Below, in pieces: positions 6,178-60,984 of a stretch of 64,000 nt of DNA (positions are counted from its first letter, which is position 1; each line of letters starts with the position of its first letter). Location: positions 20,709,331 through 20,773,330 of the forward strand of contig OY783210.1 of assembly GCA_963678705.1 (NCBI GenBank), read 5' to 3'. The translations under genes and the position numbers were made by a program. Under the pieces are notes generated by a model that made no database searches, was not told the DNA's origin, and saw only the letters and a program-made list of their open reading frames with translations. Source of the DNA: Panorpa germanica (Eukaryota; Arthropoda; Insecta; Mecoptera; Panorpidae).

Positions 6178-7544
6178 GTAAAATTTCGTATCATATCTAT
6201 TCAAATTTTCATTTTATTTTGAAATGCATATACTCCCTAGTGTTTACACCTGACTTAACTTGCATCATGCAACTCTTGTTATGAATAGTATTACCATATC
6301 TCACCGTGTTATGTTGTTACACACTCTGCAGTTAATTACTACGCGACAACACCATCTAGAGGGATTCCACTAGAGTATGATATTTGTATTTGTATTAATG
6401 TCATTTTGTTCGCTATTTTATTTTAACATTGTTTAGACATGTTATTACATGTTCTTGTTAACTTTTTTTTTGAATGACTCGCGAGGATGTTACATTGCAT
6501 TTATTCCTATCTCTTTGTTTTTATATAACTTTAAGTAGGCTTTTTAATTGGTAAATATGCACATCTACGTTGAGGAGGGAGGTTGGAGAGAAGGAAGTTA
6601 GCGAAGCCATTTGTTGAGCGACTTGTTACAGAAGAACTGTAACAGTTTTCGATTTTGTAGTGTAAAATAAAACTAATTTTTTCAATTATTCTTTTTTCTT
6701 TTTGCTCTACGATTTTTGGCCATTTGTCATTGGCTAATTTGTGGTCCTTATTGTTAAATGACTGAACCAAATTCTACGAAGATTTACTATTTAAAGAGTT
6801 TCGCAAATAAATGGTAATCTAATACTGCAAGATCAGTGGTATATGGGAGATACAAGCACTAACTGAGGGGCAGTTACCAAAGATTAGTGAGACCTTGGTG
6901 GAACACAATTCTGGTCATTTTTCTTTTATTACTTGCTTCAACTTCATTGTATACAATACCTTTGCAATGCCACTATTTGGAAATGCACAACCAAGATCGA
7001 ATTATCCGAAATTAGTTATCTTATATATTTTTATTATTAGTTACATGAATGTGGTTTAATTTTGTCAGTGTCCTAACATAGCATAACTGATGGTGACATT
7101 GCTCTGTGTAAAATAAATACCTTCAAGTGAACTGCATTTAACAAGTTGAAGGATGATGCATTGAGGCAATGTCACATGAAGTATATAACTGTCCGCGTCG
7201 TGTTCTCATCTCAGTTTGCAAGTGTGAGTCTTCATTCTTCAGCATCTTCAGCGTTTAGTGTGTTACTTGGTGTTGAATGTCATTTATTTTCACAGATAAC
7301 GATCCGTGGAGACACACAAACACAGAGATCATTGGTTCTTGTTGTCTTGGTGATGCTGTTTCAGATGTTTTCTCGTGATGGAACCTCGTCGCCGTAAATC
7401 GATGTGTCATGTTTAACTTTTGTTTAGACCCCATAGTAATTGACCGTAATAAACAAACATGGACAATAAATTTCAAAATACAGATATGTATAAATACACT
7501 TGTATATATATACTTATACCTATATATGTACTCTAAAATATATA

Positions 7545-7656
7545 CGGGGCGGGTTTTTTAAGTGAGTACCGTTTTGGAATTAAAAAAAGACGTGCAAAGA
7601 TATTGCAATAATTTTATTTTTACATGAAAGCCTGTACCTTAATCTACTTTTCTACA
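7545..7656. repeat. Mariner left terminal inverted repeat
   Basis: Pairs with 8020-8131. Its inner end contains the last transposase codons (YVEK and stop on the - strand, stop at 7644-7646), so the repeat includes coding sequence at this end. Confidence 0.9.
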
Positions 7657-7977
7657 TAATTTCCGTGAATATTGAGGCACTTGTCATAACGTGGCACCAG
7701 TTTTTGAATACCCTCCTCATAAAATTCTGCCGCCTGACTTGTTAACCACTGTATCACAACTGTTTTGACTTTTTTCATCATGCACATTTGTGCGGCCATC
7801 TTTAAATGCTCTCACCCACTTCCTTACCATTCCATCACTCATAATGTTTTGTCCGTAAACTTCACAGATCTCACGATGAATATCGATCAGTTTTACGCCT
7901 TTAGCACTAAGAAATCGTATAACAGCCCGTACTTCACAATCGGCGGGACACACGATTGTCGGAGGCATCTTAAACAC
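7644..7977 (-). pseudogene. Mariner transposase remnant (N and C ends joined out of frame)
   Basis: Starting at 7977, the - strand encodes a paired-type helix-turn-helix DNA-binding domain of mariner transposases (about residues 10-60): VRAVIRFLSAKGVKLIDIHR, then EICEVYGQNIMSDGMVRKWV and RAFKDGRTNVHDE. Right after HDE the sequence jumps to the C terminus. In another frame it reads QWLTSQAAEFYEEGIQKLVP followed by RYDKCLNIHGNYVEK and a stop at 7644-7646. A full-length protein of this family is about 340 residues; the deletion removes the whole catalytic domain and breaks the frame. The frame-1 product therefore ends at 7717. It could make at most a DNA-binding fragment. Confidence 0.9.
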
Positions 7978-8019
7978 TCAGTAAACAACGTATATAATGA
8001 AGAATCAGACTGTAATGGC

Positions 8020-8131
8020 TGTAGAAAAGTAGATTAAGGTACAGGCTTTCATGTAAAAATAAAATTATTGCGATATCTTTGCACGTCTTTTTTTAATTCC
8101 AAAACGGTACTTACTTAAAAAACACGCCTCG
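8020..8131. repeat. Mariner right terminal inverted repeat
   Basis: Mirror of 7545-7656. It includes a copy of the YVEK-stop segment upstream of the transposase start, where it cannot be coding for the transposase. The two arms differ at only a few positions. Confidence 0.9.
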
Positions 8132-9725
8132 TATATTCCCTTATAGATAAAATTGGCAATAGCTTAGTGTCTCCGTTCGTTCATTTTACCATTTTGTTGT
8201 TTGTTGTTTTATTACTGTACAAAATCTAACAGTGTTCTGTTTCATCGAATCTGTAAAGTAAAATTACTTCTTGGCTTTTGAAAAATAAGGAAATGAAAGT
8301 AATTTATATTAAATAAAGTATAGAAAACACTGTATTTTCAAAGACTTTGTCTAGGTGCGATTTTATTACTTAAGTAGGGTCAACAAAACACAAAAAGTAT
8401 TCGGTATATTACATCCGTGTATTATATTCCAACGGGCTCTCTTTTTTTTAATACTAATCCCCCTTGTTGAACTTATAGTTATCACAAAACTAAGTAATCT
8501 CTTACATACTATATATCCACGCATTGTCTCATTGATTACTGATGCACAGAGCATGCGCATTAAGTAAAACTAAAACTAAAACTCAATATTAAAACAGTAG
8601 GTCGAAATGGCAATTATTTTATATTTTTTTTACCGCTCCACCACTTTCTTTCTTAGTTGTCATCATGTATTTAGTATCTCTGCGCTTTAAAATTTTGTGT
8701 GTGTTGTAATTTAATAAGACAAGAAACAAATCTTCGTTTTTTGATAACTCGGTTCGATAATTGCCATTAAACATATCATTAACTACTTGGCAATTATAAC
8801 TTATTATAAGTCTACCTTCTGTTGTGTAGTTTGCGTCACAGTCAGCTTCAGCATATGCGCATGCGCATTGTGGTTGAATACAACGTGGACCTGGACCACG
8901 ACGAGGACCATCTTCATGGACACAACACCACTTTACAATTTGCAGACCTTGTTATTAATATTACTATAATATATTGTGTGCGTTGTACTCTATACTTACA
9001 TAAATCTTAAAGCGAGTTTTTAAGAAACGAGATTTCTTTGATTATATTTTTGTTTGAATTTTTATATCTATATATTTATTTATACAGGGTTGAACAACAA
9101 ATATTTAATATTTTATCTTGTTTTATTTGTTAAAATGTCTTTTAGTATTTTATTTGTAAAAGTATAATATTTTTGACATTAACAAATGTCAAATTTGACA
9201 TTAATGCTTCACATAATCACCGCTTGTGTGACGACGGCGCTGGTGTCAGAAAATTACGATCAGTGAAAAAAAAAAACGTGTTACAGAAGTGGTAAAATTT
9301 TGTAATAATACATGTAATTGATTTTTCTGAGATACAATTACAGTAAATGTACGTAAATTTGAATTTGTGAACGACTTAATTTTAATTACGATAGTCTTTT
9401 ATAAGGATAACAATTCTCTTTAGATTCTGAAATATTCTATTTAACCTATAACTTGTAGGCCTTTACCGCAATTAAATATTTATTTGACTGTGTGGTGAAG
9501 AATGTTAGCAATGTTTTTTTAAAACATTAAACATAAATTTAATCGCAGTAATAAAATATAATCAATTCACATAAACATCGCTGAAATTATATTCTGCGTG
9601 TAGATTCAAGAGGTCAAGATATGTCAACGTTATTTTAATATAAGGTTTCTATTGAATCTCTATTAAAAGCATTAGATTTATCATATGAAACGTGGAAGAA
9701 GAGGGAAGTAGGAGGAAGGCGTTTG
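8132..9725. other. A+T-rich stretch with NRF-1-like palindrome
   Basis: No gene recognised. About 8820-8950 is G+C-richer and open in one + strand frame (VVEYNVDLDHDEDHLHGH) without a recognised domain or good donor. At 9083 the sequence TACAGGGTTGAACAAC resembles one end of a TA-flanked MITE, but no partner end was found. Confidence 0.4.
8856..8867. promoter_or_regulatory. NRF-1/Erect-wing type site
   Basis: The exact palindrome TGCGCATGCGCA fits the consensus for NRF-1, whose insect homologue is Erect wing. Such sites are usually found in promoters of housekeeping and neuronal genes. It lies in a G+C-richer patch, but no transcription start or exon can be assigned, and CpG-containing palindromes can arise by chance. 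It also lies in an alternating purine-pyrimidine run (8853-8868). Confidence 0.35.
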
Positions 9726-9730
9726 TTTAA

Positions 9731-10020
9731 TCGTATAAATGTGTTACCATCAGCATTTTCAACGAGGTTGCTTTGAAGAGGAAGTTACGTTTTATCCAGT
9801 AGACTTTTACCTTTAGATTTAACGTAATCCTTCCTATTGGCCACTTCTTCTTCCCATTTCTAATTTCCTCTTTCCTTAGGTCTTCCCTCACTAACTCTTT
9901 CCATCTCACATTTCCTTCTTACACAGCCTGGGTTCGCTGCAATATCCTTACATGTCCTTGAAGTCTTTTCCTTCTAATTTCCGTCACAATATCTGCCATA
10001 TATTTCCTTATTTGACCAAA
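9731..10020 (-). mobile_element. Non-LTR retrotransposon C-terminal fragment and tail (family B)
   Basis: Read on the - strand: DIVTEIRRKRLQGHVRILQR, a stop, then VRWKELVREDLRKEEIRNGK and KKWPIGRITLNLK. This matches the RKxLxxxGHVxR ... RWKExV+EDL+ pattern at the C terminus of RTE/Jockey-like polyproteins and is related to the copies at 3757-4115 and 35645-35770. The downstream block 9731-9783 recurs at 49106-49158, which marks it as part of the repeat. The RT core is missing and a stop interrupts the frame. Confidence 0.65.
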
Positions 10021-14744: not shown

Positions 14745-15230
14745 GCACTTACTTTATTATTATTTTATTTTTAATATTTTTGCCATTTGGCATTACATTC
14801 ATGTGCCTTAACTCATTTATTTACAATGCCATTGTGCTTAATTCAATTTTGATCCTTATTAAATCTAAACATTCTCACTCCATCCAAACGAAAAAAAAAT
14901 TAAAATTACCCTTATAGAAAGAAAAACAAAACTGTTTGTGCTACTCTCCCTCCTGTTTCTACTCTACCATTCCTTCTCTTTCCTCGTTCCTTTTCTCTAT
15001 CTCCGCCATCCACCTTTTCCGTTCACTGCCTCACTTTAATAACTGCCCAATATTCTTTTCGCTTATTACCTTTGTCTCACATGAAAACTATTTGCCCAGT
15101 ATCTGTTTCCTTTCTCCTCGTTTCCCAATCTAAATCTGGCAATCTTTCTCATGCTTTTTGTGTCTTTTTCTCTTAAGTATTGTGGACAAAGTCTCCCTTT
15201 TAAATTATGGGCCTTCTTCGCATAGAATTT
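14745..15230 (-). mobile_element. Non-LTR retrotransposon 3' end (family A, best copy)
   Basis: On the - strand this gives the clearest coding remnant of the family. It reads LCPQYLREKDTKSMRKIARF followed by RLGNEEKGNRYWA, the IARFRLGNE motif of insect Jockey/R1-like polyproteins. After a decayed zinc-knuckle part it continues as WMAEIEKRNEERE, then a stop and a 3' UTR. The UTR shares blocks with the copy at 32.3 kb (ATGTTTAGAT and AATAAGGATCA). It ends in an A-rich AATAAAATAATAATAAA-type tail around 14750-14770. The copy is 5'-truncated, lacks the RT core, and has no clear target duplication. Confidence 0.8.
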
Positions 15231-16960
15231 AGCGCATAGAATGTAAAGGATTGACCACCACTGGCAACATAAGGCGACCGCATATTAATAAAATATAGTT
15301 ACGCGGTAAAACGTATGTGACAGCTTCTGATAAGGTTATTTTTAATCTTATAAATAAAATAATCTTAACATGAATTTTCAATCGGCAATATATTACAAAT
15401 TCAATTATTCAACCGAATAACATAATAAAAATCAGATTAATATTTAAAGTGAAAGTTCTTAATGGTTAACCACTTTAATCTGAATTATATAAATGTGTTT
15501 GCTTGTATAAATGTATATGTATATATTTAATAGTTATAATATTCTAACTAATCCCCATGAAATTATCATTATGCGGAGACTCTCAGAGCCCTGACCGTTG
15601 AGTCGTGCAGGATCATCACCATAAGCTGACAGATGAAGTTGTGAGAGAGATTTTCTTCCCCCATTCCCTTATCCTTCTACCGTGGAGAGCTGTGGTCCAT
15701 CGAGGATTATAGTATCAAATACCACTAGAACTACCAGTATGTGTCTTTTCAATCTACATAATACCCTAGAGATTTTATTAAAGTGAAATCACGCACTGAG
15801 AAATTCAGAATTTGTTTTTAAGTATAAAATCTTGTTTAAGCAGATTTAACTGTCGTGATTATATTATTAATTAATAATAAATATTTATAATCGTTTGTGA
15901 AACAATTTATTGTTGATTTAAAAACAAAGGTACGTATAGATTTACCTCTTTAGATGTCCGTGCACACGATCCGCAGCCCTGTTCCTAAGTTTAGCCCATT
16001 ATAATATGATCTTCTTTAATTTTACAATTTCTCGTGTGCGGGACAAGCTCAATTTTCCAGTCACCAGCAAAAATGTGTTATCTAACAATTGCACAACCCT
16101 AAAAGTTTGCTTCTTAATTATTATTCCATAAGGTAGCCATTTTATTTATTTTATTAGGTGCTACTAACAAGATATGAGAACATACTTACCGTATGTGGAA
16201 ATCCATATCAAATAAGCGTAGAATATAAATCTCCGTTTACGCCAAACACAGCTGATTAGCTTGCAATTACGTAAGCCAATTAACAAACAAGAACTCCATC
16301 TGTCTGTCAGTATGTCTATGTCAGAATGTATGGTATTACTATTAGGCAAATGATTGAGTGGAATGCTTTGCAATGCACAGGCGTTAGATGTGAGCACTAG
16401 CAAATGCAAATGTTAAATACAGCTATCTAATAGGTCTAATATTGAAACGTGTTTATTTCAGTGAAAGTGCTTTCAATTAATCAAAAATCATGCCATCTCT
16501 CTTTCTCAATAGGTGTGTATATTACATGCTGTTGAGACAAACATATGTAAGGAATTTTGGCGGGAAAGTTTAAATTTCATTTAAAAATTATTTATTTGAA
16601 TTATGAAATTGAAGATACTAAAAAAACCAAAACAATTCTTAATAAAATTAATGTTGAAACGCAATTAAATAAAAAGAAAACAGTGGAGTAGGGTTTTTAA
16701 TTTTTTCTGCGGGGTCACATATAAAACATTTAATATAAATATATATTTAAGTCTCTATGACATGCTTTTGATAGGTAGCATTTGCAAAGGTGTTTGCAGA
16801 TTATAAACATAAATAAAATAATATTTAATCCAATTTATTTAAATATCTCAGCTGCAGTCGTTGATGACCATGAAGGTATCTTATTAGCAACGTTAAACGG
16901 ATTTGTTTTCGATGATTTCAAGCATTGTTATAAATTAAAACTACTTTAATATTAACAGCA
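15231..16960. other. A+T-rich non-coding stretch
   Basis: No gene supported. The - strand frame at 16164-16409 is followed by CATACG|GTAAGTATG read on the - strand, a fair donor. It has no recognised domain and no partner acceptor, so I do not call an exon. Confidence 0.35.
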
Positions 16961-24319: not shown

Positions 24320-24583
24320 TTATTTTATTTTTAAACTTTTTGGCATTCTTGTGTCTTAACTCATTTATTTACATGTCAATTCAATTTTCCTTTCAAAAGA
24401 AAAAAAAAATCCTTACTAAAATAAAAACAAAACTGCTACTGCTTCGCTGCTCCTGCTACTCTCCCTCCTGTTTCTACTCTGCCATTCCTTCTCTTTCCTC
24501 GTTCCTTTTCTCTATCTCCGCCATTGCTCTTCTCAATTTTTTCCATTCTTTCCTGTTGTTGTATCCCCTTGTCTCTTCTCCCT
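24320..24583 (-). mobile_element. Nested antisense non-LTR fragment (family A)
   Basis: The - strand carries MAEIEKRNEEREGMAE, a stop, KQEGE and a 3' region sharing several blocks with 14.9 kb, such as TAAATAAATGAGTTAAGACA. It ends in an A-rich tail at 24320-24345 (TTTATTTTATTTTTAAA on the + strand). It sits inside the sense fragment at 24020-24319. The host sequence next to the breakpoint, containing AAGTACTTTTRGAAGAGTAA, is repeated on the other side at 24587-24631. The 1101-1330 copy lacks the insert, which supports a nested insertion. Confidence 0.65.
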
Positions 24584-24720: not shown

Positions 24721-25325
24721 ATTGTTGATAATTGATTTTGAGGTGGTCACCAATAAAAATATTGTTCTTTCCATTAATTTTATTACAGTTATTTTCGTTT
24801 TAATGCTTTCTAAATTTTTCATTAAATTCATAATTTTTCTTATTAAGATTTCTCTGATTAAATCGACATAGCTAACAGTTATTACGTAGCTTGATCCTGC
24901 TATTAATTCATAGTTAGATAAATTAGAGTAGAAATATGCAATAATAAGACTTATTGCATAGCGTAAAGGTATTTGCCTTGAAGATATAGTAACTATTAGT
25001 AAAATATAAATTAAATAATAAATAATTAGATAATAGGTTCATAATATTAAATTGACATTTTAGATAAGTTGATAAATGATTAATATTAAGTGACATATTG
25101 TTAATTACATAATATGCATAAATTATTGATTATTGATTGCAGTGCACAAGACCAGTAGCGTGTGCAACTGTTTTATGATGTTAGAAAGTAATTGGGGCGG
25201 TTTATAGATAAATTAAATAGTGTTATGCAGTATAAGTTGTTTTAAGAATTGGTTACTTGCAAAGTCTTAAATTTATGACAGACACTTCGATTTATCTTCT
25301 TAAATGTATTTTCATCTATATATTT
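24721..25325. other. A+T-rich stretch upstream of the first juxtaposed splice site
   Basis: No feature supported until the branch-point and pyrimidine region at about 25330. Confidence 0.4.
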
Positions 25326-25335
25326 AAAACTTACT

Positions 25336-25366
25336 TTAACTTATGTTTTTTTGTTTTCAGGTGAGT
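25336..25366 (+). promoter_or_regulatory. Juxtaposed 3'/5' splice site (candidate ratchet point 1)
   Basis: A YTNAY branch candidate (TTAAC, 25336-25340) is followed by the pyrimidine-rich TTATGTTTTTTTGTTTTCAG. The very next base begins a strong donor, GTGAGT (25361-25366). An acceptor fused to a donor with no nucleotides between is the hallmark of zero-length exons used for recursive splicing in long insect introns. It is on the + strand, as are the sites at 45319 and 56422. The same junction would also fit an ordinary exon starting GTGAGT. See the RS-exon entry. Confidence 0.6.
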
Positions 25367-25411
25367 GCTTTTACACTAATTCTCATGGTCCTTCGCACGC
25401 CACGTCCAGTA
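25361..25411 (+). other. Candidate 51-nt RS-exon or cassette exon
   Basis: It lies between the acceptor ending at 25360 and a second strong donor, GTGAGTACC, starting at 25412. Length is 17 codons exactly. The segment is clearly G+C-richer than the intron on either side (it contains CTTCGCACGCCACGTCCAGT), which suggests constraint. One frame starting at the first base is open (VSAFTLILMVLRTPRPV). The frame reading ECFYTNSHGPSHATSS is also open; the third stops at once. In the recursive model this exon helps define the ratchet acceptor and is then removed using the regenerated donor. Otherwise it is a small alternative exon. The protein is not recognised. Confidence 0.45.
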
Positions 25412-28130
25412 GTGAGTACCAAATTCCTTGATTTTATTTTTATATTTTAATTACATCGTTATCAATCATATAGCGTGTTGTTCTTGTTGTTATCAAATCA
25501 AAACATTTTTTTCATGTTACAAAATCATTTTTCATCTTAAAATTAGATGATGATTTTTTTTTTGTTACTGTGAATATTATTATATTCATATAATTGAATT
25601 AATAATTTAATTTAAAAAATATCTAATTAAATATTAATTATTAATCTTATATTAAGATTTAGATTATTGATTTGATAATGATATATTATATTATATACTG
25701 GGTGATTCGAAATAATCACACTTAAAAAAGATAACACTAGTAAATATTACCTTCCATAGAATCTTCCATTATAAAAAGGAAAAAGAAGTCTTCATTAAAG
25801 AATCTAGAAGAAATGGAACACCGATTTTATTTAAAAAAAGAAAAGTACATATTTAGTTTCTTTGTTCTTCTTAAATAAACATAGCTTAAAATAATAATGA
25901 AATAACAAGTAATCTGGTTTGAAAATAGATCGCTTGTACTTGTAAGAACTTTAATGTGATCTAAAATATAACTCGCGTATAAGTTTCACTAGATGTTAAC
26001 TTTATTGTTGCCGGTTCGGCATTCGATTTGTGACTATAATAAGTATTAAGTTGCTATACGAATATATGTATCCATCTAACCCACTCAACACGCATACAAA
26101 AGGTTCTTGAAGTAGAATAAAGCTGGTATCATATTCATAATACAGTACCCCCTGTAGGGAATATATATGCGCGCTATTCGTCAAACGAACGCTATATTCA
26201 CTAGTACAGTGTATCTCACATATACCTCTAGTACTAATTTTAATTTTACACAACGGTATTTATTAATAAACAGATCTATTTAAAAAACATTACATTTCAT
26301 TTTTTATGTAATTGTAATCACATGAGAATTGTTTAGCCTGGAATTTAATTATTGAAATCAATTTAAACATTACGTCAATGTGTCATTGTGGGTTTCGTTG
26401 TATATTTAATAGTATTACGGGTGAGTTATAAAGGAATTTAATAAATGTCCTGGATGTTGTACAAGTTATGCGTACAAATTATTGCCATAGTAATACTGAC
26501 AGCATCTGCCTCATTATCTATTTTGAAATTTCTAATTTACATGCATATAACTTTTAATCGAACTTTATATATATTAGTTATGTTACATTAATTTTATGTT
26601 GATAATATATTAAGTATAAAACATAATTAATTATTACTTTGTCTGATATACTCGTATTTTCGATGTTGACTGTTAGGGTGCGTTTTTATTGGAGACAAGG
26701 CTCTCCTTAGAATGTCACAGAGTATAAGAAAAAAGGATTCCCTCAGCTTAAAAAGGGTTAGAATTGAGTATCGGCTAAAGGAATCTTCAAAGATGCTATC
26801 ACAAATAGTTAAAAGTAGTATTTAACTGAATTAGCATAAAATTGTAAATTCATTCTCCATTAATAAGAATAAAAAGCACTAAAAACTATCTGCTTCAGTT
26901 TATAATTTATATATCCGACTTTTATGTGGATATAACATTAGCAGTGTATGTATTTTTAATTTGAATTCTAATACTATTAACAGTGTGAACTCTCATAGTT
27001 CTTTTAGTATTGTTCTACTCAGTACTTTACGAAAATTATGTATTAAAATCATAGGCGTCCGCTGAGAGAATGTGAAACGTAAATGTACTTTTCTATTAAA
27101 AGGTTTTGCGGACGCTCATGGTATCCGTTATGTGGTGATCTAAAAATGGAAATGAACTTAAACTCCTTCTGCAACATTAATAATAGAACAAATAGATGAA
27201 CAGGAGAACAGGAGAACGGATGAATAGCAAGATTGATGAATGACGCTGCCTGTATGCACTTGATGCGGTCGGTGGCTGTTATAAATAAACAATTTAACAC
27301 TATTTGTTATTTAAATTAATGCATTAATATTTTCTAAAATGTTTGTTTTATCATTTTACTTACTGTAAACGTATAAATGATTTCTATTCATCGAATAGTT
27401 TAGAAAAAGTACAAGAGACTATAGTTTTGTCGTCTGGGTCACTCTCAATTGTTACTTTTAGAAGTAATTCATTTAAGTTTATACTAATAACAAATTCCAT
27501 TCCACAATATAAATTAAAATGTTAATCATAATCAATTATGATTGATTTCAAAGATTAACTCATTGATTCGTTAAATATTTTAAATTAAAAACCCGTTTGT
27601 GACATCTTTATTAATCCCATTTTCATTGATATACATTTTTTAAATTTCTTTATAAAAATTCTTTAAATGGTCTTTCGTTACAAGTTACTGTGAATCCCAA
27701 ATAACATTTTCCTAAACCTAAACATCAGCTTGAAATATTATAATGACTCCTATTATATTTAGAATGCAACAATAAGTTCTTGAATTACCAGAAACAATTA
27801 CATTTTTATTTTAATCCCTCCACTCTATTTCCATTCTATTCAAGTCACTTTTTAATTGTTATTTATAGCATTAACGTTTTATATAGAACAAACATTTGAA
27901 CATTTTTTTTACCAACAAAAAAATATTCACTGACAAGTTGCAGACAAAACAAGTCTTAACAAATATTAATTATATAAAATTAAAGTGTATATATTTTATG
28001 TGATAATTACCAGAATGCAAATAATTATCATAATTATACCACCAGGCAGGGCTCGTAAATATCAAAATGTTTCAAAATGTACACGTAAATAATATATACA
28101 AAGTTATACATGTTTTATAAGACTTAGGTA
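25412..28130. other. A+T-rich, probably intronic, stretch
   Basis: No gene supported. At 25698 ACTGGGTGATTCGAAATAAT resembles one MITE end but no partner was found. At 27190-27215 there is a short GAACAGGA tandem repeat. The - frames at 26002-26253 and 27049-27300 have no recognised domain. Confidence 0.4.
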
Positions 28131-32139: not shown

Positions 32140-32360
32140 ATGAAGGTAAGAGGTGGATGGCGAGGATAGAGAAAAGGAACGCGGAAAGAGAAGGAATGGA
32201 AGAGTAGAAACAGGAGGAAGATTAGCAGGAAGAGTGAAGCAGCAGAGGTTTAAATTTATATGTTTCGTTTTCATTTTTCTTTTTTCTTTTGGAAGGAGTG
32301 AGAATGTTTAGATATAATAAGGATCACAAAAGAAATTAAGCGCAATGATAATATAAAATG
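32140..32360 (+). mobile_element. Non-LTR retrotransposon 3' end (family A)
   Basis: The + strand encodes RWMARIEKRNAEREGMEE, a stop, then KQEED. This aligns with WMAEIEKRNEEREGM at 14.9 kb (- strand) and with the nested copy at 24.4 kb. The 3' UTR shares GGAGTGAGAATGTTTAGAT and AATAAGGATCA with the 14.9 kb copy. No coding capacity for RT. The upstream sequence GATTCACACGGCATTG (32061-32076) resembles the terminus of the MITE at 46323. Confidence 0.72.
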
Positions 32361-35300
32361 TGTGCACCACTGTTTTTTCCATAATATTTATATTGCAAAA
32401 AACGTGCAGTGCAATGCCTTTTGTGAACCCAGCCTAAAACCACTGATCTAATAAACTGAAATTCTGTTCACGACAAGACAAATAATAAAATGTGCCACAC
32501 CTGTTTGTGTCATTCTCGTACAGTTACTTAATGCACTTGATACACTTGCTAATTAAATTCATAATAAATACATCTATCAATCTTGGACAGTTTTAAGATC
32601 AGATTGATAAAAGACCAACCAACAAATTTAACAAGTAATAATGCATTTACTCTTTAACAGGTTATGCAAATCCCGTTTGCGTGCTGTCTGTGCAAAAACT
32701 TACGTAAATCGATTTGCAGATTTACTGCGTCTAATTTAACAAGCATTACAAATAATTAGACATTAGGTATATAGTTTTATTCAGTTGGTATTTTACCTGC
32801 AGCTTTTACATGTTTTCGTTGTTTTTATGGTGGTCGTAAATGACAAGTAGTTGACAAATCCAGGTTTAATTTTCTGATTTCTTGCATAGCTAATTGTTTC
32901 TTAAATGCCATTTTAAAGACACTTATAATTTACTATTAATAAGGTGTCCGTTATGATTTATTGATTGAATAATGGACGCCGCAAAGATAATGAAATTGTT
33001 AAACTACTGAAGGTATACGAGTACATTGAGGAAGGAATATATTTAAATTGGCATATTCAGCTTAAGTACAATTTTGATTTGTTGTCTATTTGACCTCAAG
33101 GAGCAAAAATGATGTAAAATAATAGTATTAAAGTAAAGGTAACAATCGTCAGGTTCGCATCGAATTTATCATATAAAACTGGGCAGAAAAGAGAAGCGGA
33201 CAATTAAAAAAGTCATTTTTTCTCTTTAATTATTAAAGGGATTCAACGTTGTACACATTCCAAATGCATGTGGCATCACAATCCTTGTGTAAGGTTACCA
33301 ACCGGTATTTATATATCAAAATATCAAATATTATTTACAGCTATTTCAAGGAACAATCAAATTTCAATATTATGTGTGCCTTAGCAGGGTTAAATAAAAT
33401 AAAAACTTATTATTCTTTGATTTGACTTGATTATTCACGACAAAACAATACCACAGCACTGACCTACTCAACAAATAACTGACGTTAAAATGCATTTCTC
33501 GTCATACAAATATGGCTGACCATTTCTAGCGCTAAATCTACAATTTAAACTTTTAATTGCTATATCTCCATCAATATTTAGATAATAACATCATTTATTA
33601 ACATCAATTTCAATCAACAATTGAAAAATCGACCACTTGATGATGAGGACACAAGCCCATTTTAACCTGTAATAGCAGTCCTCACAGCCAAACCTGTCAG
33701 ATAAACCTTTACGTGTTTGACCAGTATAAAACTGCACCGATATTAAACAAGTCTCAAGGACGCTCTCAAATAGCAGTCGTGCTCAATCTACAGAAACATT
33801 TCCCTATGTAAACTTACATATTTATAATATGTGTACAATGAAAAAATGGTTAATGCGCAGTCCTCTCTTTTGCGTTTCCCTATGACGTTATCAAGTCAAT
33901 AAAGTTGCTGTAATATTTATTATATTCTCTTCTAAGTTTTTCAAAAGAATTGTAAGAAAATTACCATTGTTTTTTTTATAAAACATCCGTTTCAACATAA
34001 ATTAAAAATTTAGTATCGCAAAGCGTATTAAAACTTTTTATACGTATAAATAATATTAATATACATATATATTTAAATTTTCAAGAGGATCGTAAGAAAA
34101 GTGATGATCTTGTGAACATCTTTAAGATTATATTTACTCTGATTCTCTAATATAATTAATGTATGTCGTCTAATTAAGTGGTAAAGCCATTGAAACCTCG
34201 TAACGTTTTAATTCCAATTCTAATTTAATTATAAAGTCGTAACCATTAACATTTATATTGTTAAAGTTTATTTTTTATTGTTTTTATTCTCTATAGTTTC
34301 TTATGCAACTATATTATTCTCTACGATGCATAAACATTCTATTCTATAAGGAAACTGTTCTCCAGCTTCTAGTTGCAATAGTCGTAGTCGTGATCTTATA
34401 AAAAGTCTTTACAATTACATTTGCGGGCACTATTATCACTTGTATATATAAAGAAGTTTCATGAGTTCTCTCCCAGTTCTCCATATTTTAGTTCCTAGTG
34501 AAAGCAAACGATCTCTTTTAAAAACGAATGTTTCTATTTTTGTTCAAATTTATTTCAAATCGTTTCTACATTGACATTTCGTTTTGTATGTCATTATTAT
34601 AATGTGTTTTGTTGTTAAGACTCGATTAGAATTACTTTAGTTTCTTGTTAAATAACACATTTACAGACAAAACAACAAATACTAGAGACTTGGGTTTGTT
34701 TATTTGTTGTTATAGACTTGGTATAGTTGTTGGCAACTTAATAACATTTTGTGAAATAGCGTGGTAGCTACTACTACATCAATCTATTTATTTTGTTATA
34801 TTACTGCGATTTCAATAGTTAGATTATACATCACATTTTTATAAATAAAAATTCAGCGTGCCAAAATTTCAAATTGACTTGAAACTTTGACACAACGTTA
34901 CACGTGTTTTCTATGTGCACGTCTGTGTTCGAGTGTGTGTATCTTTTATTTACTTTCCCATTTATTTCATATCAGAAAGACCCACAATAAAGCGTGTACA
35001 GGTTTAGCTAGTTGATTATAATATAATAAGTGTGCATTTTTGTATATAGCATTAGTATATTTGTTTAGTATTAGATGAGTTTCAAACATGAGTGCTTCAA
35101 GCTAGAGGCTATACTAATTACAGATAAAGAAAAAATATTATTTCTAAAATGTAAATTACGCAATTAAAAATAGTTTTAATTTTTTATCAAGCGTTATTAA
35201 ATACGACAATATTCAAATTTAGTAATAAACAATTCCGGCATAAATTGCAATTGCCACCTACGGACAACAAGCAACCGCTTTTTATTAGAACTGAAAACTT

Positions 35301-42927: not shown

Positions 42928-43479
42928 TTTTTTTTTTATTACTAAAGATTATTACAATCTGTCCTGCTTATAGGACATTCAGTGATAGTTATGTCAAAAT
43001 AAAATGTCTTGCGCGGGATGTGCCCTCAACTCGACTCATCCCTCAATTTTAATAGATCCTAGATTCTGTTTATTTGGCTAGTAGGTCCTGAGGTACCTTC
43101 TTTTTCAGTCTGCGTACTGTGGAAATATTGGACATTAGATAGCTGGCCAAATTGTTTGGATGTTCTATTATTCTCTCCTTGTATACTTTGGTTCTAAGCA
43201 CTATTTCTTCTTTTACTGTAGGTATATCCAGGTCACGATGTATTATGTGATTAGGTATAAACCATGGTGCATTCGTGACAATCCTTAGCATTTTAGACTG
43301 AAATCTTTGGATTATCTCAATATTTGAGGTAGATGCAGTACCCCATAGTTGGATACCATATAGAACAGAAGTTTGTTTTCTGTGCTAAGTTGTGACTTCC
43401 GTCCTATCAGCCAGTACATCTTCCGAAATTGTAGACCTAGTTGCTTTCGTTTAGTAAATATGTGCTTCTTCCGACTAAG
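42928..43479 (-). mobile_element. 5'-truncated Jockey retrotransposon insertion
   Basis: A - strand insertion ending in an A-tail (the T-run at 42927-42937 on the + strand). It is flanked by a perfect 11-bp target duplication, CAGTGTACTCT, at 42917-42927 and 43480-43490. The 3' UTR contains GTCCTATAAGCAGGACAG, able to form a hairpin. The coding part is the C-terminal end of the Jockey reverse-transcriptase polyprotein. Severe 5' truncation is typical of target-primed reverse transcription. This is the best-defined retrotransposition event in the window. Confidence 0.93.
43070..43479 (-). pseudogene. Jockey reverse-transcriptase C-terminal remnant
   Basis: Reading frame order on the - strand: KKHIFTKRKQLGLQFRKMYW, LIGRKSQLSTENKLLFYMV, then after a frameshift near 43370 LYGIQLWGTASTSNIEIIQR, FQSKMLRIVTNAPWFIPNHI, IHRDLDIPTVKEEI and a basic end LLAK with the stop at 43070-43072. 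The YGIQLWGTAS, QSKxLRxxTNAPW and DLxIPTVKEEI motifs are diagnostic of insect Jockey elements downstream of the RT catalytic YxDD region, which is absent here. The last 74 codons are uninterrupted. Confidence 0.92.
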
Positions 43480-49105: not shown

Positions 49106-49158
49106 TCGTATAAATGTGTTACCTTCGATATTTTCAATGAGGCTGCTTTTAAGAGCAA
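49106..49158 (-). mobile_element. Fragment shared with family B tail at 9.7 kb
   Basis: TCGTATAAATGTGTTACC and the following 35 bp (ATTTTCAAYGAGGYTGCTTT core) match 9731-9783 in the same orientation on the + strand. At 9.7 kb the block lies directly downstream of the family B coding remnant. The long + strand frame crossing it (49062-49418) is therefore most likely not a gene. Confidence 0.5.
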
Positions 49159-54136: not shown

Positions 54137-56392
54137 ACAATTACTCGTCATTTTACATAAATCAGACAAATTAAAACTAAAAACGAATAAATACGACTTT
54201 ATGATAAAAATCCATTAGTTTTAACATCAAAATTTCGATATAATTATAAAATAAAATATATATCACCTTGTAGAACATATATTGTTTATCGAATATTATA
54301 TAAATATGCTTAATTAATTATAATAAATATATATATAGGTATACAAATACATGAATTATTAATTTACATGACTATTGGAATTCTCTAAAGATATATGATA
54401 CATAGAGTTATGGGTATGTGTTAGATATGTGGTATATTTTATACTTTATAGGCTCGTTTATAGATATAATTTGAATTTATTTCATTTTACGATCCTATTA
54501 CATTTTATTATTGTTCAAACACCTACGTTTCACACTTCATTTCAACTAATTATTTATAATAATTATGTTATTTAGCGCATGCTTACATAGTTTTGCGAAA
54601 TACTAATTGAAAATCAACATTTACTTCTGGCTTGCTTTCTATTACGTACTATTTGCAGTTAGTATACACACGTTTATATTCTAATAACTCGGCTATAGTG
54701 CATAAATTTTCTGGAAGACGCATTGAATTTGTCGAATCAATCATGGAAGAAGAGGGAAACGAGAGAGACAACAAATTTGTAGTATTAAGCACACAGATGC
54801 CATTAAAAATCGTAGTGCTTTCTGCATATAAATCTATTTAGTGTTCGCTTATTTGGGTGCTTTTCGCATGGTTCCTTCATTTATCTAAATCTTGAACATT
54901 CGTCTAAATAAAATAAAATGAACAAAAGATAATTTATTTGTTTACTATAACATAAATATATACTCGGAAATAATCGTAAATTATGGGAAATTTGGAGGTC
55001 AACGTATATGTGTTTATACACGAAAGCCAAACATTCGTACATGAACTCCGAATTAGAAGGAGCATTAACATTTAACGCATAACAAATAACTTGATATTGG
55101 TGAAAATACAGTACCATATTTTTTAGTTTTTCGTTGGAATTTTTAAAATGTTATTTCTATTTATTTTCAAGCACACATTGTGCTGGTTGTGCACAATTTC
55201 ATGTAGTAGTTGAACGCAATGGAATAATGTCCGCACGACCAGACTCAACAAAGGTATGTTTCCTGTTTAAAAAATAACCAACACCCACTGAAAATAAAGA
55301 CAACCTTTATCTTTTTTTTACATCGCTCTCTGTGTTAGTTCTTGAAGGAGTCACACCTAGGGTTGTGAAAACCATCGTAAAATTCTTTAGACGGATATGT
55401 TTATAGTAGTATTCTGTATAACAGTTCGATTGTAATGAGATTAAAGGTTTGTTATTTATCTGTTATATCGTATTAAACATACATATATGTATGAGAGTTA
55501 TTTTCTTACTAAAACATAACCTATAAATTATCATATTTTGAAGGTAGGTGTTACAGTAAGTATAAATTCGAATACTCCTAAGTGATTTATAGGAAGCTGT
55601 TGGATAAAATAAATTAACATATCAACTTATATGACTTTTGCATATACGTAGTTCAAATTTCTTCCACATAACGGTTTACCTGACAGGTTTGTCCGTGCGA
55701 ATTGCGTGGAGAGGTAAACCGGAGCGTGATTGTTGCCCTAGTGGACACGTCCCATAATATATGCAAATTTAGGTAAATAACACTTACAAATGTTGACTAA
55801 AAATTAACCGACAAAGATTTTTAGAGTCTCTAGACTATAACACAAACAAGGATCACCAAATTTGGTAACTACAATAAATATTTTTCTTACTTCAATGTCG
55901 CGAACCAAATGTATGCAAACACAAGAGAAAAGAAACATATTATGTACAAAAAAAATTAGCATAAAAGTACAATGCCTGTATAGATGAAGTAAACAAGGGA
56001 TGTGTAGGTATGTTCACAGTCTAAACAGCCTTGTGTAGAGTGCAGACAGTGGAGAATGGAGGAAATATCGTTTAAAACGTTGCAGTGGTGTATTACGAAC
56101 ATACATTTCTATAAAAGTTATATATTTTTAGTGCTGTATTATGATTTAAAATGATAATAATATTGGAAACATTAAGACCTCAATGTCTCGCAGCAAATGC
56201 ATTTGTAAATATATTATCAATTAAACAACCGAACCCAAAAGACGGTCCGAGAATCAATCCTGAAGACATAGAAGTTCGACATTAAGAATAAATGGTCCAG
56301 ACCCCTGCGTCTTAAATAAAATTACCGTTATTAAATGAGTAACAGCGTAAAACGCAATTAACAGATATTTTGAAAACATGTAATATATTGTA
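54137..56392. other. A+T-rich, probably intronic, stretch
   Basis: No gene supported. CGGTTTACCT at 55672-55681 and AGGTAAACCG at 55713-55722 form a 10-bp inverted pair. Short frames have no recognised domains. Confidence 0.4.
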
Positions 56393-56427
56393 TACTAATA
56401 TAATTTTTTCTTTTGTTCCAGGTGAGT
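56393..56427 (+). promoter_or_regulatory. Juxtaposed 3'/5' splice site (candidate ratchet point 3)
   Basis: A near-ideal branch site TACTAAT (56393-56399) is followed by the pyrimidine run AATTTTTTCTTTTGTTCCAG. The next base starts GTGAGT (56422-56427). The branch A lies about 23 nt before the acceptor. Of the three junctions this has the best acceptor. The bases after the donor (GTGAGTGTTT) closely resemble those at 25361 (GTGAGTGCTT). Confidence 0.62.
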
Positions 56428-56484
56428 GTTTCATAATTTTCCAACCCAAAGCATTCGTAGTTTTCCACATGTCTAGTCAGATGA
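56422..56484 (+). other. Candidate 63-nt RS-exon or cassette exon
   Basis: Bounded by the acceptor ending at 56421 and by a second donor, GTGAGTACA, at 56485. Length is 21 codons exactly. Two frames stop early; the third is open and reads ECFIIFQPKAFVVFHMSSQM. The architecture (acceptor, GTGAGTG, short multiple-of-three spacer, GTGAGTAC) is the same as at 25361-25411. If included in an mRNA in the other phases it would introduce a stop, as RS-exons often do. An ordinary alternative exon is the competing explanation. Protein not recognised. Confidence 0.42.
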
Positions 56485-57949
56485 GTGAGTACAATTTCAG
56501 TATTTATTACGACTTTAATTACTGCGTTATCCATCTTGTCGCGTGTTCGTCTGCTTTTACTTTTTCCAACAACAACAAGCAGTTTTCATGTTTTACGAAA
56601 ATGATATTTCACTTCCAAATAAGAAAAACAATTTATTGTTTAACATTTTATATATTATACGACTCGACTTGTAAAATATTATTTTTAATTATTGTTGTTA
56701 TATTTTATTCCTCGTAGTTTTATTAATGCGCAGTAGCTTATAAATTAGTAATCTTGGCTACAACGTCGATGTATCGTTTGATATTTATTATTGGTGTATC
56801 TCGTAGTACAGTAGTTGTTTATATTTCATACATGGATCGCGTACGGGTGATATATATGTTAGACGATGATCTACTAACAATTTAACTTATTGCTTACATG
56901 AAAATGGCGAACCGAGTGGTTTTGTTCTTATTCTTTTCAGTCTCTTATACCAGAGGCGCCACTAGACAGATTGTGATCTTATAACAATAATAGAAAAAAT
57001 ACCTTCAAACTCATGATAGGTCTATATGCATCCTATCATTTCAATCATAAAAATCAGTACATTGTATTGATAAACTTTTTAAAAATGAATTTGCTTTAAA
57101 ATTTAAATAGTTTAAAAGTTGATTGCAAAGTTTTGACCCCGGCAAACACTATCGTATAATTATAGAAGTATTCACAGAGTATCCATCAGATGATACAGAC
57201 CAGATTATCCGTTCCTATAAGGTAGGATATATCACCTCCTGTCCACTGTATATCAGTATCCTTTAACTTGTCCCTTATCGTGTCCCGCTTGTCGGTTAGA
57301 TGTTAAATTACCAGTTCACTTAGCTGTAAAAGCTTCAGGTTTACATTTCCACAACAATCTTTTAAAGTTAACTTCACTTTGTAGATTATTTTATTTTACG
57401 ACTATCTTACATGCTTACAATTTACTAGTGATCAAAAGGTGATTCGATCAAATAGTTTTCTTTTAAATTCAAATAGGAATATGATATTGGTTTTAGTTAA
57501 ACTACGTTTTGTGATAACAGCGCCATCGTCACACATACGGTAATTTTCTGAAACAATATTTATTTGTTTTAGAATTACAAGTAGTGCTTTAAGATAAACA
57601 TATCGTTCTTTGAGGTTGCTTTTGCTTTTATCTTTATAAGGATGAAGATTGTTTAACAGTGCTATGTGATCTTAACATGAGCCATAATGTACAATGTTCT
57701 GAACATGTGCAACATAAAGTATGCGCGTCGGTCGGCTTGTATCATTCTCTGTGCTTTGGTGTTCATCGTTTGGATGTTACTACCTCTCTGTACTCTCTCT
57801 CTCTCACTCGGTTACCCTGTTATGCTGTTCATATTCAATGTGAACTATATACATTTGTTGCATGTGTATTTCAAATGCTAAAACAAAAGTTGTAAGGTTG
57901 TTAATATTTTCCTCCATGCGATTCCAATGAAAACACGTATTTAAACTTA
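56485..57949. other. Non-coding stretch
   Basis: No gene supported. Short TC-rich microsatellite near 57786-57806. The + frames at 57659-57895 are not recognised. Confidence 0.4.
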
Positions 57950-58523
57950 CACCCTCTGTCCCATAATAAACCGGAATGGCTATGTAAACCATAGAACACG
58001 TAACGCAATTTTTTTAGTTCAAGTATTCAGTTAAAATGCGATGAATTATTGTTTTAGATAAACCTAGTTCAATTTTTATTAACCTCACCTAAGATTTCTT
58101 GCTAACTTTTACTAAATCACTTACTTTTTCAATGTTTTCTTTAGTAATGACTTCACATGATCGACCCGAATGTTCATCATTATTACCATCTTCTTTAACA
58201 TCTTTCAATCTTCGATACCACTCAAAAACTTGTGTTTTAAATAGACAATTATTACCATAAGCAATTTTAAGCGTTTCTGTAGCTGTTTTTCCGTTCTTAA
58301 AACAGAATTTAATATATATTCTTTGTACATTTATCGACCAACACACAAAAAGAGCTGTTACTATATGTGTTGTATTTTTGTTTATACTAAAGTTAATGTC
58401 ATGACATTTTTACAGATTGTTAGAAAGTTTCAAAGAACATAATTACAAAAAAAAACTAAAAAATTGCGCTATGTGGTTCTATGCTTTACATAGCCATTTC
58501 TGATTATTATGGGTCAGAGGGTG
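57950..58523 (-). mobile_element. Internally deleted mariner element (second family)
   Basis: TA flanks both sides (57948-57949 and 58524-58525). The inverted repeats start CACCCTCTGTCCCATAATAA on the left and, read from the right, CACCCTCTGACCCATAATAA. They stay alignable for about 65 bp through ATGGCTATGTAAA and GCAATTTTTTA. The interior holds only the N-terminal part of a transposase on the - strand. It differs from the mariner at 7545 in both ends and protein, so it is a separate lineage. Confidence 0.92.
58089..58346 (-). pseudogene. Mariner transposase N-terminal fragment
   Basis: An open frame of 85 codons: IYIKFCFKNGKTATETLKIA, YGNNCLFKTQVFEWYRRLKD, then EDGNNDEHSGRS and KENIEKVSDLVK before a stop. 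This is the first HTH of the mariner DNA-binding domain (IKFCFKLGKTATET...VFEWxxRFKDGREDxxDxxRxGR pattern), followed by the linker toward the second HTH. The catalytic domain (about 250 residues) is absent. Some residues have drifted (KDVKED for KDGRED, RSC for RP), and the frame ends inside the deletion derivative. Confidence 0.88.
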
Positions 58524-60984
58524 TATTTACATTATTTGACATTATTATAAGTTGTAAACTATAATTGGTCTGGTCTAGATTCCATGCTCTATTGGTTCCA
58601 CTAAGTCATGCCCATATATCTGGGAATGCGATTTATGATGCACTGTTAACTCCAGTTCCTTCCTTCAAAATTTTCCTTAATTCAAATCGTTCCTTAGTAT
58701 AGTCTTGGAAGTGTCTTTAGTTTCCTTTGTCAGGTATTCCAAAGTTCTAAGGCCTCTCTATTTTGTGTTCTTCTTTAGAAACTTTCTTATCTGGTGTAGT
58801 CTACAGGTTTCGATGTGATACCTCACATCTTCTTCTTTCTTTTCACCGCAAAGTCAACTACTTTTTTCAGATAAATATATTGTTTAATAATAAAACACCT
58901 GAATTTGTTTTAAGTCATTACATTACAACTTTTATGATCTTTTTATCACATATGGGAATATAATGTAACTGTATGCTGTATGCTTTATGTTTTATGTTTT
59001 ATGTAGACATGGTAGTGTGTGTTCACTAGTCCGCCCGCCAGAGCTTGTTCTATCTTGTCTGCTGTTTTCTGTACGACCACTGTATCATAAATACATCCTC
59101 TGAATTAATAATGCACACACATTCAAACAAACCTGCACATACTAACACAGAAATTGTAATATTTGTATTATGATATCCCGATTTTATACCTCCCTGCCCC
59201 ATTGTACATAACGACCCACACCCCTAACTTCTGTGCACACTTTGCGAATCAAATCAAATAGTATTCATTCTTATTGATGTTAGTTTTATTTTATTTGCAT
59301 TAAAATCAATTGCTTATTAATAGTCTAGCATAAGGTCTTTTTAGACGATCAGATTTTAGTTTCACTTCCTGACTTTCGCTCTAGTAATATGATTGAAACC
59401 TCTTCTTCTTTTCTTCAAAATCTGTAGACATTGTTTTGTATCAATTTCGATCTATGTTCAATCACAATTCTTTATTATTTTTGTCACATTACTGGTAAAT
59501 GAAACTCAGTAATCCCTGATGAGATCTCTGTCTTCATTAAGAGATGTTAACTCATACAATATATATATAGTTTGACTTGACTATAGCAAATATTTTAAAG
59601 ATTATCAGTTTTCAAATTCAGTAGTACTTAGTAACAAATTATTTCCACAAAGCTTTCTATTTGATCGAGAATTATGGTCTACAATCCATGTATGCTCTTT
59701 GGATGCCGTAATTCAAATGACAATAACATATTTCGATGTTTCTAAGTAGCTAAAACTATTAACCATTTTTTGATTAATAGGTAACAATGAAGTTACAAAT
59801 AAATGTAAAATCATTTAACAAACAAACGATATACAAGTTCCATCTAATTTTTCGCAAATTACAGCTTTCAAAACATCTTTTCTTTGACATTCAATTCAAG
59901 CAACTTTGTAGCTCATATTCCTTTATCAATTTATTCGATGAACGACTCGGCTCGTGTAAGCATTTATTTACCTCATCTTAGTATACAAAGCCACAATGGC
60001 CTGTTGCCTGGAGGCTCGCATTATTTCACCTTGTTACTGCACTTACTTTAGATACTGTACCACTATGTACATACAAAAAGAAAAAGCCGTTCTCGGTCTT
60101 ACATCTATCTACCGTTCAATGCAATCAAATTTATTTATTATATTATTTGATGGGTTAATAATGTATTTGATTTTATAGACTTCCAAAGTAACTAAAGAGA
60201 AGAATTTGTATGTAGATTTTAAAACTATTTACTTAAGATAACATTTTAAACATTTCTTATATGTTGTTGTAATGGGTTTTTAGGAAGTGTTGTCAATTAT
60301 TAACAACTATTGTAAGGGGCCTGACAATTTCTTTGTTATGTTATACGTAAATGCTACATTAATAATATATCACATCACTCAATAAGCTCGTTGGATGACA
60401 TATAGATAGAACCAACCTTCATACGATATATGTCCAAATTTCATAATATTTCGAGCATTACTTTACGAGTTACAGTAGTTCTAATTTTCGCATGTAGCAC
60501 CTGCATCACATAAGAAACAAACATTTTATCTTATTTCTTATGTTAAAGCATGTTTTAGTCAAAGTTATACTGTATATTGAATCATATAATGAGAGTGATT
60601 GTTTATAATATTTTAGGTCACATTAACAGAATCGTGAATGTTATATAAATTGATAAAAATCAATATTTCATTGGCAAAGTCTACTAATTACATAAAGAAA
60701 CAATGGTCGCTTTGTTTAATGAATTAATAAAAGTCGTTGTCATTAAATGCTGATTCATATGCATGGGTAGCCGGCTCGGTTACAAAATTAGACACCAATT
60801 TAGAAAGGAATTATTTAATTATGTACTTATATAAAGTCATAGTTTGTTCAAATATTAACGGAGTAAGCAAAAAAGAAACAGCTTTTCTTTTCTTCTTATT
60901 TATTAAGCTCAAAGAGGTTGTCTGGAAAATCGCGTCATAAGCTTTGTACAACTATCTTTGTCATAGGTAGGATTATTGTATAAG
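58524..60984. other. A+T-rich non-coding stretch
   Basis: A TTTATG/TATGC microsatellite lies at about 58974-59004. About 58570-58865 reads weakly on the - strand (YHIETCRLHQIRKFLKKNTK) with stops and may be decayed coding sequence of unknown origin. Frames at 59787-60178 and 60737-60940 are not recognised. Confidence 0.35.

Follow-up and report, generated by a model that had tools for sequence, protein, structure and literature searches.

Stepwise removal of long introns is a process known from fruit flies. In the available part of a Drosophila study (PMC8605326), a ratchet point is described as an acceptor and a donor that are joined, with an RS-exon of ca. 50 nt that is closed by its own donor, and the ~73 kb intron of Ubx is described as harboring two RS-exons of 51 nt each (i.e., m1 and m2). 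For introns longer than 40 kb in fly cells, the accessible text of another report mentions a high-confidence recursive site in 63% and a medium-confidence one in a further 7%, with recursive segments in flies typically spanning 9–15 kb (PMC6110457). Moreover, according to an excerpt of PMC2773006, the ratchet consensus reads (y)nncag/gtaagt (the slash marking the junction), and mosquito, bee and beetle show an enrichment of such sites in their large introns.

Two junctions on the plus strand of the window (i.e., the whole 64-kb stretch of Panorpa germanica DNA that was analysed), located at 56422 and 25361, quite probably constitute two such recursive-splicing sites (ratchet points) of a long intron, each with a short putative RS-exon. 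This reading rests on their top two ranks among the 341 junctions scored, on the GTGAGT that recurs 51 or 63 nt further on, and on splice octamers that are intact at two sites with homologous flanks.

The junction at 56422 is preceded by a TACTAAT branch-site match (56393–56399), whose branch A at 56398 lies 23 nt ahead of the final base of the acceptor AG, and by a pyrimidine tract ending in CAG (56400–56421; acceptor score of 11.2 bits). Direct reading of the plus strand places the start of GTGAGTGTTT at 56422, immediately after the CAG ending at 56421, and the GTGAGTG at 56422–56428 (donor score of 9.8 bits) would serve as the ratchet-point donor that is re-formed after a first splice. The candidate RS-exon 2 that starts here is 63 nt long (56422–56484), has phase 1 as its sole open phase (i.e., (x)ECFIIFQPKAFVVFHMSSQM), and is closed by the donor GTGAGTACA (56485–56493; 5.8 bits), which is preceded by TGA. 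The TACTAAT, the pyrimidine tract, the AG/GTGAGTG and the second donor at exactly 63 nt, as reported in the first-pass annotation of this DNA, were in this way all confirmed by direct reading.

The junction at 25361 lacks a TACTAAT, unlike the one at 56422, and carries a pyrimidine tract with CAG at 25340–25360 (acceptor score of 10.9 bits), after which GTGAGTGCTT begins at 25361 and GTGAGTACC at 25412, i.e., with a spacing of 51 nt by direct reading of the plus strand. The corresponding candidate RS-exon 1 (25361–25411; 51 nt) has the ratchet donor GTGAGTG at its start, is open in phase 1 (i.e., (x)ECFYTNSHGPSHATSS) as well as in phase 0, and is followed by its own donor GTGAGTAC (25412–25419; 7.1 bits), with GTA before it. 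Both junctions fit a ratchet consensus of (y)nncag/gtragt, and at both sites a short segment of about 50 nt (51 and 63 nt) is closed by a second donor, as in the description of RS-exons above.

To rank the junctions, a 26-nt acceptor–donor weight matrix, built from general splice-site frequencies, was applied to all 341 occurrences of AGGT on the two strands. The junctions at 56422 (21.0 bits) and 25361 (20.7 bits) came first and second, with the third-best AGGT (15.5 bits) more than 5 bits below them. Under an order-3 Markov null (200 simulations of 64 kb), the maxima had a 5th percentile of 12.1 bits and a 95th percentile of 18.1 bits, and a cut-off of at least 20.7 bits, which was chosen post hoc and set by the two sites themselves, was reached by 1 site in the 200 simulations (0.005 sites per simulation; highest simulated maximum of 20.7 bits), with 0/200 simulations holding two such sites. 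Two weaker AG/GT junctions on the plus strand, at 16513 (15.5 bits) and 45319 (13.3 bits), fell inside the range of the null maxima and were rejected as extra ratchet points. The second donors were compared with the surroundings of the 339 other AGGT sites: a GTGAGT ca. 40–80 nt 3′ of the AGGT was present at one of them, a donor scoring 5.7 bits or more (the strength of the weaker RS-exon donor) at 40–80 nt downstream was present at 9.7%, and one of at least 7.1 bits at 5.0%. Moreover, CAGGTGAGT has two occurrences in the window, both at these two sites. Since TACTAAT is common in the window (14 times on the plus and 8 times on the minus strand) and is missing at 25361, this motif contributes position, not rarity.

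The flanks downstream of both units were found to be homologous. Specifically, the stretches following the RS-exon donors (25420–25600 vs. 56493–56680) aligned with a local score of 54, which was reached by 0/2000 dinucleotide shuffles (maximum of 47) and by 0/2442 other windows on both strands (maximum of 38), and lax scoring yielded 92 vs. at most 77 in the 2442 other windows. Depending on the scoring, the homologous stretch measures ~115–165 nt on the plus strand, with the presumed intronic segment downstream of RS-exon 1 covering 25435–25547 (strict) or 25431–25584 (lax), that downstream of RS-exon 2 covering 56501–56624 (strict) or 56494–56659 (lax), and the best block located at 25446–25479 and 56514–56547, respectively. 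No alignment beyond chance was found between the upstream flanks of the two sites (score of 20, equalled in 718/2000 shuffles) or between the RS-exon interiors at the DNA level (score of 11 vs. a shuffle mean of 11.7, equalled in 1372/2000 shuffles), and the outer flanks were not homologous on the left or right, with 46% and 27% of other windows scoring equally well. Within the 64-kb window, a profile of the pair retrieved no further copy that passed the inclusion threshold.

Pairwise alignment of the units revealed complete identity of the ratchet donor (7/7) and of the exon donor octamer (8/8), next to 12/21 identities in the pyrimidine tract plus CAG, 21/44 identical aligned columns (and 12 gap columns) in the exon interior, and 10/21, 32/40, 46/75 and 22/40 identities in the downstream blocks. 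Splice octamers kept amid drifted flanks and interior form a pattern that would be expected from constraint on the splice signals. Because of the homology of the downstream flanks, the shared layout does not count as two independent events; one unit was probably derived from the other by copying, two independent inventions being unneeded, and the pair probably goes back to an old duplication. The earlier claim that the layout shared with 25361 is hard to put down to chance was therefore borne out by the junction scores, the Markov null and the flank homology. The repeated splice-site design proposed along with it stands insofar as the two top acceptor–donor junctions match the anatomy of ratchet points and RS-exons, but the flank homology makes descent the better explanation of their likeness. 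As for both segments being copies of one transposon, which the first-pass annotation had named as an outcome that would speak against it, the flanks do point to copies of one sequence, but nothing in this window showed the copied unit to be a transposon.

Regarding the choice between donors, an upstream exon ending in CAG would give the ratchet donor 14.3 bits vs. 7.1 (site 1) and 5.8 bits (site 2) for the RS-exon donors, and the ratchet donor beats the RS-exon donor for 46/64 and 55/64 of the possible last trinucleotides of the upstream exon. As the comparison varies with the end of the upstream exon, this advantage of the ratchet donor is conditional, and the RS-exon donors are probably the weaker ones. 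Our best guess is that the RS-exons are skipped by default and optionally included. In the part of PMC8605326 at hand, Drosophila ratchet donors are generally stronger than RS-exon donors (with hth as the exception), and reporters of the Ubx-m1 type were mostly included though their donors were weaker, so that inclusion may also occur here.

Both RS-exons preserve the frame (51 and 63 nt) and are open in a common phase 1. The chance of both lengths being a multiple of three with a common open frame amounts to ~1.7% if independent (i.e., 15.1% of random interiors times 1/9 for the lengths), a coincidence whose weight is reduced by the relatedness of the two units. Both phase-1 peptides begin with ECF, the donor letters supplying the E and the greater part of the C codon, and beyond ECF their likeness was no better than that of shuffles (658/2000 as good). 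Given this shuffle-level likeness, both a cryptic and an expressed RS-exon are kept as readings. A coding role of the open frame at 56343–56714 was rejected, as a Pfam search up to E 1 returned nothing for it.

In mechanistic terms, the acceptor would be recognised by exon definition together with the GTGAGTAC donor located 63 or 51 nt 3′ of it. Joining of the upstream exon to the RS-exon would then let the end of the former meet GTGAGTG and re-form a donor, and this ratchet donor, usually the stronger one, would be used for onward splicing, the RS-exon leaving with the next segment in a zero-nucleotide step. The segment between the two ratchet sites would span ~31 kb. Should the RS-exon donor win instead, the mRNA would retain 17 or 21 additional codons without a change of frame.

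The coding and repeat content of the window was surveyed as well, with 142 of 171 ORFs (stop-free, 57 aa or longer) being scanned against Pfam. In these 142 ORFs, a mariner HTH alone was seen to exceed the curated Pfam cut-off (six families at E 0.004 to 0.046 being listed without cut-off comparison). This outcome is in keeping with a long intron; a window that lacks coding domains may also lie between genes. Twelve Pfam families were listed at E up to 0.05, and besides the Mos1-type HTH, 10 of the 11 others had an E of 0.004 or worse. The DUF1091 match (33237–33422, plus strand; E 0.00056) scored 20.7 vs. a cut-off of 25 bits and is plausibly a chance hit among 142 ORFs, and DUF5445, DUF3566, Spo16_N and DUF7865 all stayed under their Pfam cut-offs. 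The Mos1-type HTH was present in 2/142 ORFs, both on the minus strand (7720–7977 and 58092–58409, the latter below the curated cut-off); each sits between inverted-repeat arms, neither overlaps the ratchet sites, and Pfam yielded no transposase match at these sites among the scanned ORFs. The mariner-like element at 7540–8136 contains the first HTH (E 9.4e-09; minus strand, 7720–7977) and has arms of 117 nt that are 97% complementary, and a second mariner-like piece at 57948–58525, with arms of 50 nt that are 90% complementary, lies ~1.5 kb from the unit at 56422. These mariner pieces suggest animal DNA, with an arthropod as the probable source.

AT-rich inverted arms (25007–25049 and 25598–25640; 71–88%) bracket site 1 with a score of 39, which was equalled or exceeded at 0.8% of 1417 random positions, as opposed to 36% for the score of 22 at site 2. 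For a MITE-like unit bracketed by arms, this is one notable result of two, and the site-1 copy may be of mobile origin. Further repeats in the window comprise a pyrimidine-rich dispersed repeat at 14842–15028, 24430–24543 and 32141–32334 (two copies in direct orientation, 95% alike across 78 nt; the third is inverted, with 87%), with weaker relatives near 1168 and 3153, and a pair of 53-nt direct repeats (9731–9783 and 49106–49158) that are 85% alike and 39 kb apart. Finally, the minus-strand open frame at 43073–43384, which resembles the tail end of insect non-LTR retrotransposons, had no counterpart in Pfam up to an E of 1.

The two segments might instead be conventional alternative microexons of the cassette type, or a mutually exclusive pair that arose by duplication, in which the GTGAGT start would be coding sequence for x-Glu-Cys-Phe and recursive use would be unneeded. 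Lengths that are both a multiple of three with a common open phase 1 (the ~1.7% coincidence), peptides that both start with ECF, and flanks that are homologous as for duplicated exons would all suit this explanation. We nevertheless consider it improbable, as past the ratchet donor the exons, unlike paralogous coding exons, show no alignment beyond chance (11 vs. 11.7 for DNA, 658/2000 for peptide), a complete GTGAGTG donor straight after the acceptor is unneeded for coding, and the exons are 31 kb apart.

Decayed copies of an unrecognised repeat, with incidental splice-like motifs and neither copy used in splicing, would account for the homologous downstream flanks, in a window that holds several repeats and mariner pieces and in which the AT-rich inverted arms around site 1 have a score reached by only 0.8% of the 1417 random positions. 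Such decay, however, sits poorly with splice octamers that are intact (7/7 and 8/8) vs. flanks at 10/21, 32/40, 46/75 and 22/40 and an interior at 21/44; moreover, the profile yielded no further above-threshold copy in the window, the arms of site 2 are ordinary (equalled by 36% of random positions), and the outer flanks are not homologous (46% and 27%), and this explanation appears distinctly improbable to us. That the splice-like motifs arose by chance is hardly credible: YAGGTRAGT alone is indeed unremarkable (3 seen vs. 1.18 expected, with at least 3 in 11/100 shuffles), but the junction score, the pairing with GTGAGTAC and the flank homology all argue against it.

Within the preferred reading of two putative ratchet points with RS-exons, the unusual feature of the pair is its paralogy together with the common downstream block. 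As a tentative and rather doubtful extension, the design might have spread in modular fashion, with the junction, the RS-exon and the ~115–165 nt of downstream intron being copied within one growing intron, and with the shared block (25446–25479 and 56514–56547) acting as a splicing control element that sets skipping or inclusion of the RS-exon. A limited literature search (titles and starts of abstracts) met no report of copied ratchet points, which does not prove their absence. The homologous flanks provide a handle on the origin of ratchet points, which may involve copying of whole units rather than point mutation, and the block common to both downstream flanks is a concrete, testable candidate for an extra-exonic control element. 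As the recursive-splicing studies consulted here mostly concern Drosophila and mammals, a well-formed putative pair in another animal genome also widens the catalogue.

Other searches of the locus covered RNA families, motifs and relatives elsewhere. No Rfam family reached its gathering score in the window, so that Rfam provides no landmark for the locus, and a tRNA scan of the window returned 0 hits. Structured RNA downstream of the donors was unsupported (z of -0.89 and -0.04), and in a consensus fold of the pair the exon was linked to the downstream block by 6 pairs, of which 3 were changed on one side and 0 on both, these counts standing without a chance estimate. The homeobox/Ubx motifs YPWM, WFQNR, RRGRQ, GECPED and KIRSDL were absent from the six frames of the window, making Ubx as the gene an unproved guess, and the loose pattern NRR.K had one match, on the minus strand (57286 in reverse-complement numbering). 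A docking site, sought as the reverse complement of the shared block, was rejected, with only a 22-nt partial match (32550–32571 to 56500–56521; E 0.004) among the BLAST matches listed. Exact-pattern searches for relatives returned 1 match in viral contigs, which was judged to be chance (GC of ~46–55%, without a pyrimidine tract), 0 matches in viral contigs for the downstream block, and 0 in prokaryote genomes.

When set against known systems, the RS-exon peptides found here presumably differ in sequence from those of Ubx m1 and m2. The locus resembles Drosophila Ubx m1/m2, as portrayed in the available part of PMC8605326, in that there are two short frame-preserving exons, presumably within one long intron, each of which would open with a donor that is re-formed (twice 51 nt in Ubx, 51 and 63 nt here); unlike in Ubx m1/m2, the downstream flanks of the present pair are homologous. 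Its acceptor–donor junctions, and its exon interiors that do not align between the two copies (the published criterion being conservation between species), are likewise reminiscent of the cryptic RS-exons of kuz, Bx, chinmo and Ubx-RP in Drosophila, with their weakly conserved interiors, but such cryptic RS-exons, in the same part of that study, strongly tend to be out of frame (53 nt in Ubx-RP and 56 nt in chinmo; PMC8605326), whereas both are in frame here. The 31-kb segment is longer than the 9–15 kb that is typical of flies in the accessible text of PMC6110457, which counts against the reading as ratchet points. Finally, the order of events proposed here, with exon definition followed by use of a re-formed donor, is shared with the RS-exons of vertebrates, a distant host group for which the available portion of PMC6224609 reports hundreds of annotated and mainly constitutive RS-exons.
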